DNA from: Lysobacterales bacterium
Lineage (GTDB): Bacteria; Pseudomonadota; Gammaproteobacteria; Xanthomonadales; SZUA-36
Direction: 5' to 3'
DNA: 51,328 nucleotides
NCBI GenBank assembly: GCA_013042835.1
Contig: JABDPJ010000011.1
Location: 1 to 51,328 of the forward strand
Both the position numbers and the translations under genes were made by a program. The notes beneath the pieces are model-generated. The model saw nothing but the letters and a program-made list of their open reading frames with translations, had not been told where the DNA came from and made no database searches. Below, in pieces: positions 15,812 through 35,000 of this stretch; the first letter of the stretch is position 1, and every line of letters starts with the position of its first letter.

Positions 15812-17644
15812 TCAGTGCAGCGCCTTGAATATTCTGGCGGCCAGTTGCCGGTTGATGCCCGGTATACCCGCCAATTCTTCCACGCCCGCTTTGCGGACAC
15901 CCTGGATACCGCCAAAATGCGTCAGCAGGGCGCGCCTTCTGCGTGCCCCGACACCCGGAATGTCCTCCAGTACCGAGTGCACAACAGCCTTTTGACGACG
16001 GCCACGGTGACCGGTAATCGCAAACCGGTGCGCCTCGTCCCTGACCTGCTGCACCAGGTGGGATGCGGAAGATTCCGGGCCGGGGCGCAGGCTGTACGGT
16101 TTGACCGGCAAGACCCATTCTTCATATCCGGCACGCCTCGACGGCCCCTTGGCAACCCCCATCAGCGGGATGTCGGTGAGCCCACACTCGGCCAGCGCTT
16201 CCAGGGCAACACCCAACTGACCTTTACCTCCGTCAACGATAACCAGGTCGGGCAAGTGACCTTCATCCTTCTGCAGCTTCCGGTAACGACGGCGCAGAAC
16301 CTCACGCATGGCGGCATAGTCGTCACCCGGTTCAAATCCCTTCAGGTTGTAGCGCCGGTAACGCGATTTGACCGGGCCGTCCGCACCGAACACAACGCAG
16401 GAGGCGACGGTTTTATGGCCGGAAGTATGTGAAATATCAAAACACTCAATTGTTTCCGGAACCTCAGCCATCGACAACAATTCGGCCAGGGCTTCAAACT
16501 GTTTGCTGATGCGGGAGGTCTCGGAGCTGCGCATATGCAGAGCGTTCAATGCATTTCGACCGGCCAATTCCAGCCATTGCTTGCGGTGGCTCCGCGGCCG
16601 CGACTGGATGCGCACTTTGCGGCCACTGCGCTCACTGAATACGGACTCAAACAATTCCTGTTGCTCTATGGAATGCGAAATGATCAGCTCCGGCGGCGCC
16701 GTGCGGACACGGTAAAACTGCCCGAGGAATGCCTGTAAAATTTCCCCTTCCGAATGACCTTCGGACTGGCTTGGAAAATAATCCCGCTGGCCAAGGCTGC
16801 GGCCACCGCGGACGGAAATCACCTCGATTGCGCAGCGCCGTTGCAGCTTTGCCAATGCAATAATATCCAGATCGCCATTGCCCGCTGAGACAAACTGGCG
16901 AGCCTGCATTTGTTTCAGGTGATTGATCTGGTCCCGGTACTGGGCCGCCTGCTCGTATTGTTGTAGTTCCGCCGCCTTTTCCATTCGCCGGATAAGGCGC
17001 GTGATGACTTTCTGGCTATTGCCACGCAAAAACAACAAGGCATCTTCAACCTGCCGCGAGTAGGCGGCAGCTTCGACTTTATCCACGCATGGCGCCGTAC
17101 ACCGCTTGATCTGGTATTGCAGGCAGGGCCGCGTCCGATGACTGAAATAGCTGTCTTCACAGTTACGCAGCAGGAACAGCTTTTGAATCAGATTGATGCT
17201 CTCGCGCACCGAACTGGCCGAGGGATAAGGACCGAGGTAGACACGCTTTTTGTCTTTACCACCACGGTGAAAAGCGATGCGGGGAAATTCATGGTCGGTG
17301 CCGAACATCACCCAGGGATAGCTCTTGTCGTCACGCAGAAGCACGTTATAACGCGGTTTCAGTGACTTGATCCACTCGTTTTCCAGCAACAGCGCTTCCG
17401 CTTCGGTGCGCGTCAGGCTGACTTCGATTGAGCGTATCCGCGCGACCATGCGCATGATCCGGTCAATTTTCGGCCGCGCATCAAAATAGCTCGAAACGCG
17501 CTTACGCAAGTTTGCGGCCTTGCCGACGTAAAGCGCACTGCCCTCGGCATCACGCATCAGGTAAACACCGGGCCCGGCAGATAACCGGCGGGCAAATTTC
17601 CTGCCGTCGAATCCGGTTTCAGTTGCAGACACGGTATTTCCCAC
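15812..17644 (-). CDS. uvrC: UvrABC excinuclease subunit C
   Basis: 610-residue nucleotide-excision-repair nuclease making both incisions beside a lesion. It has an N-terminal GIY-YIG domain (GVYLMRDAEGSALYVGKAANLRKRV), a Cys-containing segment (CLQYQIKRCTAPCVDKV), a UVR motif (about 204-238), the RNase H-like C-terminal endonuclease (ECFDISHTSGHKTVASCVVF, VIVDGGKGQL), and helix-hairpin-helix repeats at the end. The start is GTG at 17644, sharing one base with the stop of the phosphatase gene. Confidence 0.98.
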   Translation of the reverse strand: MGNTVSATETGFDGRKFARRLSAGPGVYLMRDAEGSALYVGKAANLRKRVSSYFDARPKIDRIMRMVARIRSIEVSLTRTEAEALLLENEWIKSLKPRYNVLLRDDKSYPWVMFGTDHEFPRIAFHRGGKDKKRVYLGPYPSASSVRESINLIQKLFLLRNCEDSYFSHRTRPCLQYQIKRCTAPCVDKVEAAAYSRQVEDALLFLRGNSQKVITRLIRRMEKAAELQQYEQAAQYRDQINHLKQMQARQFVSAGNGDLDIIALAKLQRRCAIEVISVRGGRSLGQRDYFPSQSEGHSEGEILQAFLGQFYRVRTAPPELIISHSIEQQELFESVFSERSGRKVRIQSRPRSHRKQWLELAGRNALNALHMRSSETSRISKQFEALAELLSMAEVPETIECFDISHTSGHKTVASCVVFGADGPVKSRYRRYNLKGFEPGDDYAAMREVLRRRYRKLQKDEGHLPDLVIVDGGKGQLGVALEALAECGLTDIPLMGVAKGPSRRAGYEEWVLPVKPYSLRPGPESSASHLVQQVRDEAHRFAITGHRGRRQKAVVHSVLEDIPGVGARRRRALLTHFGGIQGVRKAGVEELAGIPGINRQLAARIFKALH

Positions 17645-28646: not shown

Positions 28647-29001
28647 AAAAGGAATTCGCCCTGCCGGATAGTTCTCCGAAACTGCCTGATTATTTCACCT
28701 GAGCCGTGCTTTAAAAGGGCCGGGCTTCATAGACTCAGCAACAGTTTACACGTTGCTTCAGTGGCAGATGCAACCGAATTCATGCACCACGAGGTGCCGC
28801 GTAAGACTTAATTTTTGATGGCAGACCGACAAGCTGTCATCCGAGAACCGGGCCGAACTGGATTGGCCTGGCGATGAAAACAATTTTTGGTACCCCCGGC
28901 AAAGATGCAGAGCATCGCCGGGTCAGCTAAGTGGAAACATGCCGCAAAGGCGTCATGTAGTTCCACCGCCGCCCCGTTCCGGGGTGCCTGAGGAACATAT
29001 A
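28647..29001 (+). promoter_or_regulatory. Long structured rne 5' leader (probable autoregulatory region)
   Basis: The 405-bp rluC-rne gap has no gene. Its 3' third folds into three successive hairpins: 28895-28922 (CCCGGC...GCCGGG with inner GATGC/GCATC), 28931-28966 (GTGGAA...TTCCAC with inner ACATG/CATGT) and 28970-28986 (CCCCG-TTC-CGGGG). TGAGGA, the ribosome binding site, follows at about 28990. In E. coli a leader of about 360 bases with hairpins lets RNase E control its own mRNA; the same design is inferred here. Confidence 0.65.
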
Positions 29002-31959
29002 ATGAAAAGAATGCTGATTAACGCAACTCAGCCGGAAGAGTTGCGCGTGGCTATTGCCGAGGGTCAACAACTTGTTGATCTTGATATAGAAGTCCCTTCC
29101 CAGGAACAAAAGAAATCCAATGTTTACAAGGGTAAGATCACACGGGTTGAACCTTCGCTGGAGGCCTGTTTCGTAGAATTCGGTTCTACCCGGCATGGCT
29201 TCCTTCCACTCAAGGAAATTTGCGAAAGCTGCTACATCAAAGACGGCAAGAGCAGGAATGGCAAGGTAGCCATTCGCGATGCCGTCCGCGAAGGCCAGGA
29301 GATAATTGTCCAGGTAGAGAAGGAAGAGCGTGGCAACAAGGGTGCAGCCCTGACGACCTACATATCACTGGCGGGCCGCTACCTCGTTCTGATGCCCACC
29401 AACCCGTCGGCTGGCGGCGTTTCACGCCGAATCACCGGCAACGATCGCGACCATCTGCGCGAACAACTGCAAAATGTTACCACCCCGGACAATGTTGGCA
29501 TCATCGTGCGCACCGCAGGTGTGGGACGGGATGCGGAAGAATTGCAGTGGGACCTCGATTACCTGTTGCAGCTTTGGTCGGCGATCGAACAGGCCGCCGA
29601 TAAACGCTCAGCCCCGTTCCTCATCTACCAGGAAAGTAATTTATTTATCCGCGCACTGCGTGACCACCTGCGAAACGACATCGGTGAGATTCTTATTGAT
29701 AACGAAACCGTGTTCAACGATGCGCGGGAGTTCATGCAGCAGGTCATGCCGCACAACCTGAACAAGTTGAAGCTGTATTCCGACCAGATTCCGTTGTTCA
29801 ACCGCTACCAGATCGAATCCCAGATTGAGTCGGCGTTTGCCCGAACCGTGCACTTGCCATCGGGTGGCGCGGTGGTATTTGATCACACCGAGGCCCTGCT
29901 CTCAATTGATATCAACTCCGCCCGCGCAACCAAGGGCTCGGATATCGAGGAAACGGCCTATAACACGAACATGGAATCCGCCAATGAGATCGCCCGGCAG
30001 CTACGCTTGCGCGACCTGGGTGGACTCATCGTTATTGATTTTATCGATATGACCGGCCGCAAGCATCAACGTGAGGTTGAGGAGTGTTTACGCCGTGCGA
30101 TGCAAATTGACAAGGCCCGGGTGCAAATCGGACGTATTTCGCGTTTTGGCCTGCTGGAAATGTCGCGCCAGAGATTGCGCCCATCGCTCGGTGAATCCAG
30201 CCAGGAAACCTGTCCGCGTTGTGAAGGTCACGGCACCATTCGCAGCGTTGAATCTCTCGCCCTTTCGATCCTCCGTCTCGTCGAAGAAGAGGTCATGAAG
30301 GACTACACCGGTCAGTTGATCGTTCAGGCTCCCACCGAAGTGATCAATTTTCTGCACAACGAGAAGCGTGCTGCGCTGGCGGAAGTGGAATCGCGCCACC
30401 GCGTACCAATTGTCATGCTGGCAAACCAGCACCTGGTAACACCACACTTTGAAATTATGCGTGTTCGTAAATCAGACATTTCCGACGAGGCCAGTTACAC
30501 ACGGGTAGAAACGCCCGAAGCACAGGTTGTCGCCAACGAACGCTCTCAGTCCAGCGCTGTGGCATTACCTACTCCGGCAGTCAACCGTATCGTGCCAGAC
30601 CGCCCGGCGCCTCCACGCGCAGAAGAACATGCAGCTGGTACCGAAGAAAAAGCACCTGGCTTGTTTACCCGTTTGACCAATATTCTTTTTCACTCGAAAG
30701 AGGAAGATAAGAGCAAACCGAAGCAGGCCAAGAAAGCTACCAAGAAGACGGCAAAGAAAACAACCAAGAAGGCCAGCAGCGGGCGCACACCGCAAAAAGG
30801 TTCACAGTCCGCCAAGCAACAGTCAAGCCGTCGCACCAGCAAGAAGCGCAGCAGCAAGGGCGCCCAACAGCAACAACGCACGAGTAAGAAACGGCCGGCC
30901 AAGAAAACCCAGTCAAAGGCTGCCCAGGGAAAACAGGCTCAACAAAGCAAGAAAAAGCCGGTACAGAAAAAGCCACAACAACAACAAGGCAAGAAAGCGA
31001 CCGAAAAAGCCAAGCAGGCGGGTACTGCAGCTACAGCCGCTGTTCAGGGCAGCGCGCCCGGCGGTGAAATTGATGGCAATGTGAAAGCCGAGCAAAAAGA
31101 AAGCAGTAACCGCAGGGGTGGTCGCAGGAGACGTTCCCCATACAAGACGGGCGGCTCAAAACCCCGTCAGGAGCGCAGTGATCCGAAGGCACAAACAGGC
31201 AAGGCTCCTGTCGCATCACCAGCAGATACCAAGGAAGCAGCTAAAGCTTCTCCACCATCGTCTGACAAGGATGGCGCCAGCGCTTCAATAACCGCCAAAG
31301 AGCAGTCAAAGCCCGCGGTTTCCGCCGACAGGAAAGCATCCCCTGAGAACCAGGCGAAGGCCAGTACGAAACCCACTGACGCTAAACCCGCTGCTGCAAA
31401 ACCTGATACTGACAAACCGACAGACCCGGGAACGCAGAAAGCCAAAGCCGCTGCTGCGAAACCTGGGGAATCCAAGCCGACTGAACCAGAGACTGGCAAA
31501 ACCGCACCCAAAGCAACCAAGGCAGTTGAGCCCAAAGCCGATGCAACCAAACCGGCAAAGCCCGAACCTGGGGCACCCAAACCGACTGAGTCAGCGGCGG
31601 AAAAATCCGGATCCGCAAAGTCCAGTGACCCCAAGCCCAAGCCCGTTGATTCGAAATCAACTGAGCCTGGCGCTGCTGAGAAGCCGGCGGCCGGTAAAGC
31701 AGGTAAAGCAGAGCAGCCAAAAGAGCCTTCAAAGCAGGCAGTGCCCGCAGATAAAGCTCCTGGAAAAAAATCTGAATCCGACAAGCCGCCAAAGTGGCCG
31801 GCTCAAAAAAAGGCGGATGCTAAAGAGACCACCGCAACAAAGGACCAGAAACCTTCTGAAGCCAAGGCGCCGGCAGACAAGCCCAAACAATCACCGGTGA
31901 TTGCGGCGGAGAAAGACGCGAAGGGCATTTATACGCTCAAACCGCCACCTTCGGAGTAA
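29002..31959 (+). CDS. rne: Ribonuclease E
   Basis: 985-residue endoribonuclease and degradosome scaffold. The catalytic half has the S1 domain (about 35-120), DNase I-like residues in [10 protein letters not shown] and [13 protein letters not shown], and the zinc-link cysteines C404 and C407 (CPRCEGHG), the same numbering as in E. coli. After about residue 520 the protein becomes disordered, very rich in Lys, Gln, Pro and Ala, with an Arg-rich patch ([11 protein letters not shown], near 702). Degradosome binding sites cannot be recognised in it. The ATG at 29002 follows TGAGGA and gives the canonical start [10 protein letters not shown]; an upstream in-frame ATG at 28939 lies in the leader hairpins and is rejected. 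Confidence 0.97.
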
Positions 31960-32060: not shown

Positions 32061-32702
32061 TTAAACGCCTTCCACCAGGCCATAACGCATGGCCATGCGC
32101 ACCATTTCCACTTCGCTACGTGCACCGAGCTTACCAAGTATCCTGTATTTGTAGGTGGACACCGTTTTCGGGCTCAGGCACATGAGCGATGCGATGTCCG
32201 GAATACGACTACCGTCCGTGATCTTTAGCATCACCTCCATCTCACGCGCAGATAATTCCTCAAACGGCGAGCCGTTCGCAGCACCGGAAATCATTGACAG
32301 GGCCAACTGCTTCGCGGCCTCGCTGCCGATATATCGCTGTCCACCCGCAACGATCCTGACCGCACGGCGCAACTCGGTTGCCTCGCAGTCGCGTGTCAGG
32401 TAACCGCTTGCACCCGCGTCCATCAGGCGCGTCGGGTAAGGCGGTTTGGCATGTCCGGCAAGAATTATTATTCCCGCCCCCGGGCGGATGCGTTTCAATT
32501 TTCGGGTTATTTCAAAGCCCGTCAGGCCCGGCAAGTTAATGCTGAGCAATATCACATTGGGTCGGCTATTCCTGCACCGCTTGATTGCCGCCTCCCCCGA
32601 AACGGCCTCGATTACTTTGACGGATTCGCTGCCTTGATCAAGGATATGCCGCAGGCCGGTTCTGACTAACGCCTGGTCGTCTATGATGAGTATTTGAATC
32701 AT
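32061..32702 (-). CDS. GacA/UvrY-like LuxR-family regulator with degenerate receiver
   Basis: 213-residue protein with a receiver domain (1-120) and a LuxR-type helix-turn-helix (about 148-205, LSAREMEVMLKITDG...LCLSPKTVSTYKYR-like). The output domain strongly resembles GacA/UvrY, which activate Csr/Rsm small RNAs. In the receiver the acidic pair D8-D9 is kept, but the phosphoacceptor position 54 is Ser (VILLSINLPG, codon AGC), the usual Thr/Ser after strand 4 is Ala (IIILAGHAK), and the usual Lys after strand 5 is Arg (GYLTRDC). It is therefore unlikely to be controlled by phosphorylation. It is not next to uvrC as uvrY/gacA usually is. The gene is intact with a strong AAGGGGGG ribosome binding site. 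Confidence 0.92.
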   Translation of the reverse strand: MIQILIIDDQALVRTGLRHILDQGSESVKVIEAVSGEAAIKRCRNSRPNVILLSINLPGLTGFEITRKLKRIRPGAGIIILAGHAKPPYPTRLMDAGASGYLTRDCEATELRRAVRIVAGGQRYIGSEAAKQLALSMISGAANGSPFEELSAREMEVMLKITDGSRIPDIASLMCLSPKTVSTYKYRILGKLGARSEVEMVRMAMRYGLVEGV

Positions 32703-32775: not shown

Positions 32776-32878
32776 CCCGTGAGCAATTTCCAACAAATTT
32801 TGTTCACGGGTCATATAACTATAGACATCAGTTGGTATTTCGTCGACCCGAAACTGGAACAATCTCCGCCTCGGGTCG
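32776..32878 (-). promoter_or_regulatory. Two stem-loops with GGA-containing loops upstream of the regulator gene
   Basis: Within the 358-bp gap 32703-33060, CCCGTGA (32776-32782) pairs with TCACGGG (32804-32810), and CGACCCGA (32844-32851) pairs with TCGGGTCG (32871-32878). Read on the minus strand, i.e. as a leader of the regulator gene, both loops contain GGA (GTTGGAAATT and GCGGAGATT), the CsrA/RsmA recognition triplet. Whether they are transcribed is not shown. Confidence 0.45.
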
Positions 32879-32946
32879 TTCTCCTACAAGTTTTTAGTCA
32901 CCAATCAACCAAAACACGTTCGCGCCAGGCTTGAGAGCGTAATCAC

Positions 32947-34410: not shown

Positions 34411-34693
34411 GAGCAAAGGATTCCTTAATATGCCCTGCCCTTCGGGTTCGCTGCCCTCATGCAAAAACGCATTGTGCGTGGACGCCCCGGTGCCGCATAG
34501 CGCAGGGATGCGCGAGAGCGGCCTCCCGGCGTTTTTGTCGAACCCAGGTGCTACACACAGGGTTTTGCATCGGACCATCCTTGGTCCTCGCCCTGCGGGC
34601 GTCTCCTTCGTCGACGTCTTTCCGGGCTATCCTGCCCGGTAATCGAACCCAGGTGCTACGCACAGGGTTTTGCATCGAGCCACCCGCTTCGGC

Positions 34694-34722
34694 AAATAAA
34701 AAACCCGCCAAGAGGCGGGTTT
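34694..34722 (-). terminator. Duplicate copy of tRNA-Ser terminator
   Basis: Second copy, offset by 181 bp, of the AAACCCGCC...GGCGGGTTT hairpin with a T-rich tract on the minus strand. It lies in the left copy of the cassette, behind the tRNA fragment. Confidence 0.75.
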
Positions 34723-34874
34723 GTTATTTGGCGGAGAGGGTGGGATTGACTCGGACCATCCTTGGTCCTCGCCCTGCGGGCGTCTCCTTCGTCGCCGTCT
34801 TTCCGGGCTATCCTGCCCGGTAATCGAACCCAGGTGCTACGCACAGGGTTTTGCATCGGACCACCCGCTTCGGC

Positions 34875-34903
34875 AAATAAAAAACCCGCCAGGAGGCGGG
34901 TTT
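34875..34903 (-). terminator. Rho-independent terminator of tRNA-Ser
   Basis: Stem AAACCCGCC (34882-34890) with GGCGGGTTT (34895-34903), loop of four, followed on the minus strand by TTTTTATTT. It is seven bases after the tRNA 3' end. Confidence 0.85.
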
Positions 34904-34909
34904 CATATT

Positions 34910-35000
34910 TGGCGGAGAGGGTGGGATTCGAACCCACGAAGGGCTATTAACCCTTGCTGGTTTTCAAGACCAGTGCATTCAACCGCTCTGCCACCTCTCC
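34910..35000 (-). tRNA. tRNA-Ser (anticodon UGA)
   Basis: A 91-base tRNA on the minus strand with encoded CCA. The acceptor stem GGAGAGG pairs with CCTCTCC, the anticodon arm is CTGGT-CTTGAAA-ACCAG (anticodon TGA in DNA), the long variable arm is AAGGG...CCCTT as expected for a class II tRNA, and the T arm is GTGGG-TTCGAAT-CCCAC. It reads UCN serine codons, mainly UCA. serS lies about 1 kb away. Confidence 0.97.

Follow-up and report, generated by a model that had tools for sequence, protein, structure and literature searches.

The GacA/UvrY ortholog of a Lysobacterales bacterium has probably lost its phosphodonor and now appears to be a pseudo-receiver regulator that works independently of phosphorylation. 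Its gene lies within the 51,328-nucleotide stretch of contig JABDPJ010000011.1 (assembly GCA_013042835.1) analysed here, hereafter the window, where it runs on the minus strand from 32702 to 32061 as an intact frame of 213 amino acids with an ATG start; frame 1 of the plus strand is interrupted by stops over the same positions. The product (P0001; assigned from its ORF, Pfam, NCBIfam and a tree) comprises a receiver domain (residues 4-116; 32355-32693, minus strand; Pfam Response_reg, E 2e-23) and a LuxR/GerE HTH DNA-binding domain (residues 149-204; 32091-32258, minus strand; Pfam GerE, E 8.2e-15). Alignment with E. coli UvrY indicates that the acceptor Asp is replaced by Ser at codon 54 (AGC, 32541-32543), the switch Thr/Ser by Ala at codon 82 (GCC, 32457-32459) and the conserved Lys by Arg at codon 104 (CGC, 32391-32393), all on the minus strand; the acidic pair D8-D9 and the aromatic residue at K-3, Tyr101, are retained. 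A preliminary description had proposed a GacA/UvrY-like regulator in which all phosphorylation residues are degraded. The tree and the residues S54, A82 and R104 bear out a regulator of the GacA clade without the standard requirements for phosphorylation, but the word "all" was an overstatement, given that the acidic pair is kept. The HTH region reads LSPKTVSTYKYR in the window protein, LSPKTVATYKYR in canonical members of the family and LSPKTVNSYRYR in E. coli UvrY. An AlphaFold2 model (mean pLDDT 88.9) has the alternating strand and helix order of receivers in that domain, and a fold search with the model of the window GacA returned, as expected, regulators of the NarL type, among them LiaR, VraR and EvgA.

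By descent and by position, the window gene is a GacA/UvrY ortholog, since it shares a clade with E. coli UvrY and a place beside rne with its relatives. In a tree of 48 regulators the clade with UvrY had a support of 95/90, and four other NarL-type regulators of the window genome fell outside it. The best NCBIfam family was UvrY/SirA/GacA (NF007018), at 221 bits against a curated cut-off of 280. Three canonical relatives scored 236-255, also below the cut-off, which attributes part of the shortfall to the lineage; a more distant canonical relative passed with 285. For comparison, E. coli UvrY reached 451 and the runner-up among the regulators of the window genome 167. The idea that the protein competes with a true GacA found no such competitor: no second regulator of the GacA clade was found in the window genome, which at 89% completeness may hide another copy (other genomes with altered orthologs include drafts), and the next best match, C316, has 35% identity and lies outside the clade.

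The gene stands tail to tail with rne (RNase E; 28939-31959, plus strand), beyond which follow rluC, lolE, lolD and comEC, all named by NCBIfam, some of them below the equivalog cut-off. In 26 of 27 loci of the family and its near relatives, some of which are one genome counted twice, rne adjoins gacA, with and without Asp54, and the 27th locus stops at a contig edge. Thirteen loci from other families of the order were compared as well; six have rne inside the fetched stretch and a seventh has it at the edge, and none of the 13 stretches contains a UvrC match, so that a place next to uvrC is not diagnostic for GacA here. In the window, uvrC (15812-17644, minus strand; named by NCBIfam) adjoins pgsA and has no neighbouring regulator ORF. 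The separation of gacA from uvrC, noted beforehand, is thus confirmed; as a clue to altered function it carries no weight, because the position beside rne is common to Asp54-bearing relatives and several other families of the order, so that the separation is older than the residue changes and unrelated to them.

Of 37 genomes of the family that were searched, 30 have a gacA ortholog by our reading of the matches. Close relatives with Asp54, which would have pointed to a recent mutation, are absent at the level of the genus: among its 10 members with gacA, residue 54 is Ser in nine and Asn in one. Nine of the ten frames are full-length, and the tenth match stops at a contig end. In the nine full sequences residue 82 is always Ala, residue 104 is Arg in seven, Leu in one and Met in one, and the acidic pair is D8-D9 in eight and N8-D9 in the ninth. 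G017, which belongs to a different genus, combines Ala54 with Ala82 and Arg104. Conservation of Ser54 among related species therefore holds for most of the genus, and not for the member with Asn or for G017. Seven genomes of three further genera all keep Asp54 but have Ala82; D9 is changed to E or S in three of them, and K104R occurs in one. We refer to these 18 genomes as the altered clade, G001 being assigned to it by genus. Ala82 is found in all 17 readable members, 16 of which carry Asp and one Asn at position 105 (K+1); in 12 canonical family members this position is Gly, Ala or Ser. Tyr101 is fixed throughout the altered-clade and canonical members compared. Canonical residues were found in the remaining 12 family genomes, in the 14 order genomes that were read, of 23 with a match, and in E. 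coli UvrY. The recurrence of the same changes across the genus makes them more than chance, and their presence in separate genomes rules out a recent mutation or a sequencing error.

In the gacA tree the 17 full-length Ala82 rows form one clade, as does the genus (both 100/99). In a tree of concatenated housekeeping proteins, a moderately supported branch (80/97) sets the Ala82 genomes apart, and a single group of the genomes without Asp54 is rejected (AU p 0.0007); in this tree G017 and the canonical genome G021 have under half of the columns, and its topology shifted with method and rows, a quick tree putting G021 beside G017 and a careful one not. The simplest account is a single loss of the switch residue followed by two or more losses of Asp54.

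A candidate for the lost phosphodonor comes from the barA position. In E. coli, barA adjoins rlmD. In many members of the order, a standalone receiver-Hpt protein of about 240-280 amino acids is encoded beside rlmD. Two genes often intervene, one carrying DUF1318 and the other long and with no match in Pfam or NCBIfam, which we take to be ydbL and ydbH. Among a few references, the best match of the protein was the receiver-Hpt end of BarA in the six copies compared (for a copy cut by the contig, the receiver of BarA), and all 17 aligned sequences share its phosphorelay residues, namely the acidic D16, D59, K113 and, in the Hpt part, His182. It lies beside rlmD in all seven canonical gacA-bearing genomes of the family in which the place is visible, one copy being cut by a contig end, and also in three family genomes without a gacA match. 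At rlmD in 22 genomes of the order, the protein was found in 14, a weak short match in two, a 727-amino-acid kinase in one and no standalone copy in five. In all 15 altered-clade genomes where the place is visible, rlmD and pdxJ are immediate neighbours; in the other three, rlmD was not found.

Whole genomes were also searched with a receiver-Hpt profile. The protein was found at E 6.7e-56 or better in 10 of the 12 canonical gacA-bearing family genomes, and no ortholog was found in the 18 genomes of the altered clade, where the best match had E 2.8e-39 and the matches inspected were hybrid-kinase ends, receivers or members of another receiver-Hpt group. The two canonical exceptions are G023, which is 77% complete, and G021, which has a canonical GacA, an rlmD at a contig end and a 950-amino-acid BarA-like kinase with its own Hpt and a matching end, and is the sister of the altered clade in the careful concatenated tree. 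Elsewhere in the order, G039 also combines a canonical GacA with no clear receiver-Hpt, and in G043, G044, G045, G054 and G060 the standalone protein is absent at rlmD and present elsewhere. The profile gap is not absolute: a divergent standalone protein of G011, a genome that lacks a gacA ortholog, scores 8.6e-43 and falls among the copies of the rlmD type. Absence of the receiver-Hpt coincides with an altered GacA at a Fisher p of 2e-6, a statistic that ignores relatedness; the loss and the change of the switch residue both fall in a single clade and may amount to one shared event.

Relocation of the gene within the altered clade was considered and rejected, given that the remaining receiver-Hpt proteins there, such as G000:C166, group with hybrid-kinase ends, apart from the rlmD type and most standalone copies with a support of 87 (SH-aLRT only, in a quick tree with many weak branches). 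G000:C166 (L327, 4776-5561) is a standalone receiver-Hpt of this other kind, with 262 amino acids, encoded beside another NarL-type regulator, and related copies occur in several altered-clade genomes. The window genome has five Hpt matches, and its Hpt-bearing proteins include this different receiver-Hpt group.

We propose that the ancestor of the genus and its sister genera lost the standalone receiver-Hpt protein, which would be the phosphodonor of GacA in the order, and that this loss preceded the changes in GacA. With the donor gone, selection on the phospho-switch would have weakened; without input, the switch Thr would have become Ala, and Asp54 would later have been lost at least twice and Lys104 replaced. 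The DNA-binding domain and promoter region were retained, as was the position of the gene. The window GacA would then be active in the unphosphorylated state and would most likely bind the old GacA-type sites, presumably still acting on Csr/Rsm-type targets, with its activity set by the amount of protein. The full sequence of events, in which the Gac pathway left the phosphorelay through loss of the barA-locus donor, then of the switch and then, at least twice, of Asp54, leaving GacA as a CsrA-wired, phosphorylation-independent master regulator, is a tentative proposal, slightly more apt to fail than to hold in all its parts. If it holds, the clade is a stepwise natural series from response regulator to pseudo-receiver and points to the missing GacA phosphodonor of the order.

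Work on other bacteria fits a donor of this type. In Pseudomonas aeruginosa, available sections of a study of GacS and LadS report that phosphate reaches GacA via an Hpt domain, H2 of GacS (PMC4866733), which supports a BarA-like Hpt as the donor. Here, in contrast to that relay, where the Hpt lies inside GacS, the order has a standalone receiver-Hpt beside rlmD; the same sections state that three free Hpt proteins of P. aeruginosa did not serve LadS. In Shewanella, UvrY with the D54N change accepted no phosphate from BarA, according to an excerpt of PMC3171408.

The leader of gacA also has conserved parts. It ends in AAAGGGGGGGAC-ATG, with a G-run ahead of the start codon that is found there in nine aligned members of the genus. 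A promoter-like site, TCGACG-17-TATAGT (32818-32846, minus strand), is at chance level on its own (one match in 1.2 kb, with 1.1 expected) and draws its support from conservation, TATAGT being present in the leaders of nine of nine aligned genus members. Further upstream, the leader alignment places a conserved element, TGTAGGAGAA in the window (32879-32888, minus strand) and TGTAGGAAAT as the consensus in relatives, 65-66 bp from TATAGT in the genus and 65 bp in the window; the window copy is placed by alignment, and the best scan match in its genome (9 of 10 letters) lies elsewhere. The consensus occurs exactly in 12 of 26 gacA leaders, from canonical and altered genera (a level reached by none of 100 shuffles each), and eight further leaders match it at 9 of 10 letters (at most 7 of 100 shuffles did so). 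The element was considered as a possible GacA box. Two full palindromes of this type were found, in G055 ahead of recA and in G018 ahead of the gene of an integron integrase, which suggests an SOS-type site as much as a GacA site, and the right half of the palindrome is not conserved at gacA; the gacA element may thus be of the SOS type. A conserved block ahead of the start codon resembles GGATCAATCCAAAGGGGGGA, and the GGA motifs would suit CsrA, although this is only a suggestion.

In the genus, receiver and HTH are both under purifying selection, with median pairwise dN/dS of 0.10 and 0.04, respectively; these values are rough, since pairs with unsaturated dS numbered 18 of 36 for the receiver and 11 of 36 for the HTH. 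Within the genus the HTH averages 91% identity and the receiver 70%, and the receiver-to-HTH divergence ratio stands at 3.4 (95% interval 2.2-6.3), compared with 2.1 (1.5-3.2) in the Asp54-keeping Ala82 genera and 1.2 (0.8-1.9) in the canonical sister clade. By column bootstrap the genus differs from the canonical clade with P 0.0006, and the Asp54-keeping genera with P 0.03. The genus receiver retains the Pro at Asp+4 (8 of 9) and the Gly at Asp+8 (9 of 9). With a raised ratio and a low dN/dS, the receiver appears relatively relaxed, yet still constrained. The pathway looks rewired rather than broken, given that the usual activation by phosphate and the gene of the likely partner are gone, yet selection has kept the regulator.

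This constraint bears on an alternative in which the pseudo-receiver is not constitutive and is controlled by a new input, such as a ligand, a partner protein or a modification of Ser54, a possibility that we regard as rather unlikely. The receiver dN/dS of about 0.1 speaks for it, as do the fixed Tyr101 and the shift of K+1 to Asp or Asn in the altered clade, K+1 and K+2 being positions singled out in available sections of a review of pseudo-receivers (PMC12632262). However, the gene has the same housekeeping neighbours as its canonical relatives, with no new partner gene seen there, and receiver divergence is elevated relative to the HTH; the variation of residue 54 among S, N and A and of residue 104 among R, L and M argues against a required modification of Ser54. 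Relaxed constraint or decay, with a regulator of little function heading for loss, seems improbable. In its favour, further pocket residues are altered in the clade, namely D9 and, once, K104 in the Asp54-keeping sisters, and in a near-complete genome of the order (G053, completeness 100) neither GacA (at E 1e-30) nor CsrA was found, nor a receiver-Hpt that scores like those elsewhere, possibly through loss of the whole Gac/Csr pathway. Against decay, the frame is full-length in every genus member except the one at a contig end, the HTH is 91% identical across the genus and the leader blocks are conserved. That an unusual phosphorylation persists, at the acidic pair kept in most of the genus or by pairing with another regulator, is very improbable even with other Hpt-bearing proteins in the window genome, the different receiver-Hpt group included, given that the acceptor, the switch and the Lys are all changed together and the rlmD-type protein was not found.

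The proposed loss of the donor and of dependence on phosphorylation can be set beside known systems. The window protein resembles GacA/UvrY/SirA (NF007018) in its receiver and LuxR HTH, its clade, its near identical recognition region and the presence of CsrA in the genome, and differs in lacking Asp54, the switch Thr and Lys104. By the definition given in the accessible part of PMC12632262 it is a pseudo-receiver, and it resembles the aspartate-less regulators treated in the portions of PMC4395418 and PMC12632262 consulted in its missing active-site residues and its lack of an adjoining partner kinase gene. Those portions give Ser as the third commonest replacement in aspartate-less receivers after Glu and Asn (15%), and report LuxR/GerE outputs among pseudo-receiver regulators. 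The 2025 review (PMC12632262, in part) counts unphosphorylated dimers and control of availability among the possible modes of action of pseudo-receivers, suggests that they arose many times and calls their mechanisms of activation and inactivation a mystery. Unlike those aspartate-less regulators, the present one can be traced in sister genera to a canonical GacA, and a likely phosphodonor gene is missing. By word search, the accessible text of both papers makes no mention of GacA, and that of PMC4395418 none of UvrY. No literature pairing UvrY with a pseudo-receiver was found in a search whose coverage left out most subscription journals, and, among the matches listed for phosphorylation-independent GacA and for GacA D54, no title concerned a GacA naturally without Asp54. 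SsoR of Shewanella oneidensis, in the sections of PMC11045786 available, is likewise an orphan regulator reported to be phosphorylation-independent, for which control by more protein was proposed; in contrast to the window GacA, it belongs to the OmpR/PhoB family and keeps its phosphorylation pocket. Pseudo-receivers are common; in this family, orthologs in the canonical, half-changed and fully changed states all occupy the same genomic position. The presence or absence of the candidate donor gene follows the state of GacA, so that the change could be tested with a handful of purified proteins.

A dedicated GacS was not traced among the best 12-16 candidates per genome; many paralogs were left, so that such a kinase may still be present. 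With 12 candidates scored per genome, none of the 61 genomes passed the BarA cut-off, not even those with a canonical GacA. The tracers tried were the BarA protein, the NCBIfam model and an N-terminal stretch taken from a GacS-like kinase; they were abandoned, given that many paralogs matched and no ortholog could be assigned in the family. The sCache_4 domain (PF09984) also failed as a marker, with no match in the 61 genomes and, among 14 controls, only in E. coli. In one family of the order, a BarA/GacS-like kinase with receiver and Hpt lies about 1.4 kb from gacA (G058; L216, 7436-9892; 819 amino acids) and is a candidate for the true GacS there; it has 47-83% matches in five other order genomes and only partial matches, up to about 46%, in the family of the window.

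CsrA is present in nine of ten genus members, and the window genome has csrA twice (L165, G000:C25, and L166, G000:C228), one copy adjoining alaS and one elsewhere. The GacA box of Pseudomonas is TGTAAG-N6-CTTACA. No excess of this box was found in the genus (24 sites against 53 for the control in 10 genomes; one against three in the window genome), and over 61 genomes there were 81 sites against 174, with nine single genomes above the control. No known Csr/Rsm RNA was found in the window or in 20 stretches around box matches, where the search of known RNAs returned one irrelevant match below its gathering score. Elsewhere in the window, positions 34538-34926 hold two tandem copies of 181 bp at 96% identity, in which a 43-bp piece occurs three times and inverted-repeat arms of 30 bp are present, and this repeat adjoins and overlaps a tRNA match at 34913-35000 (minus strand).
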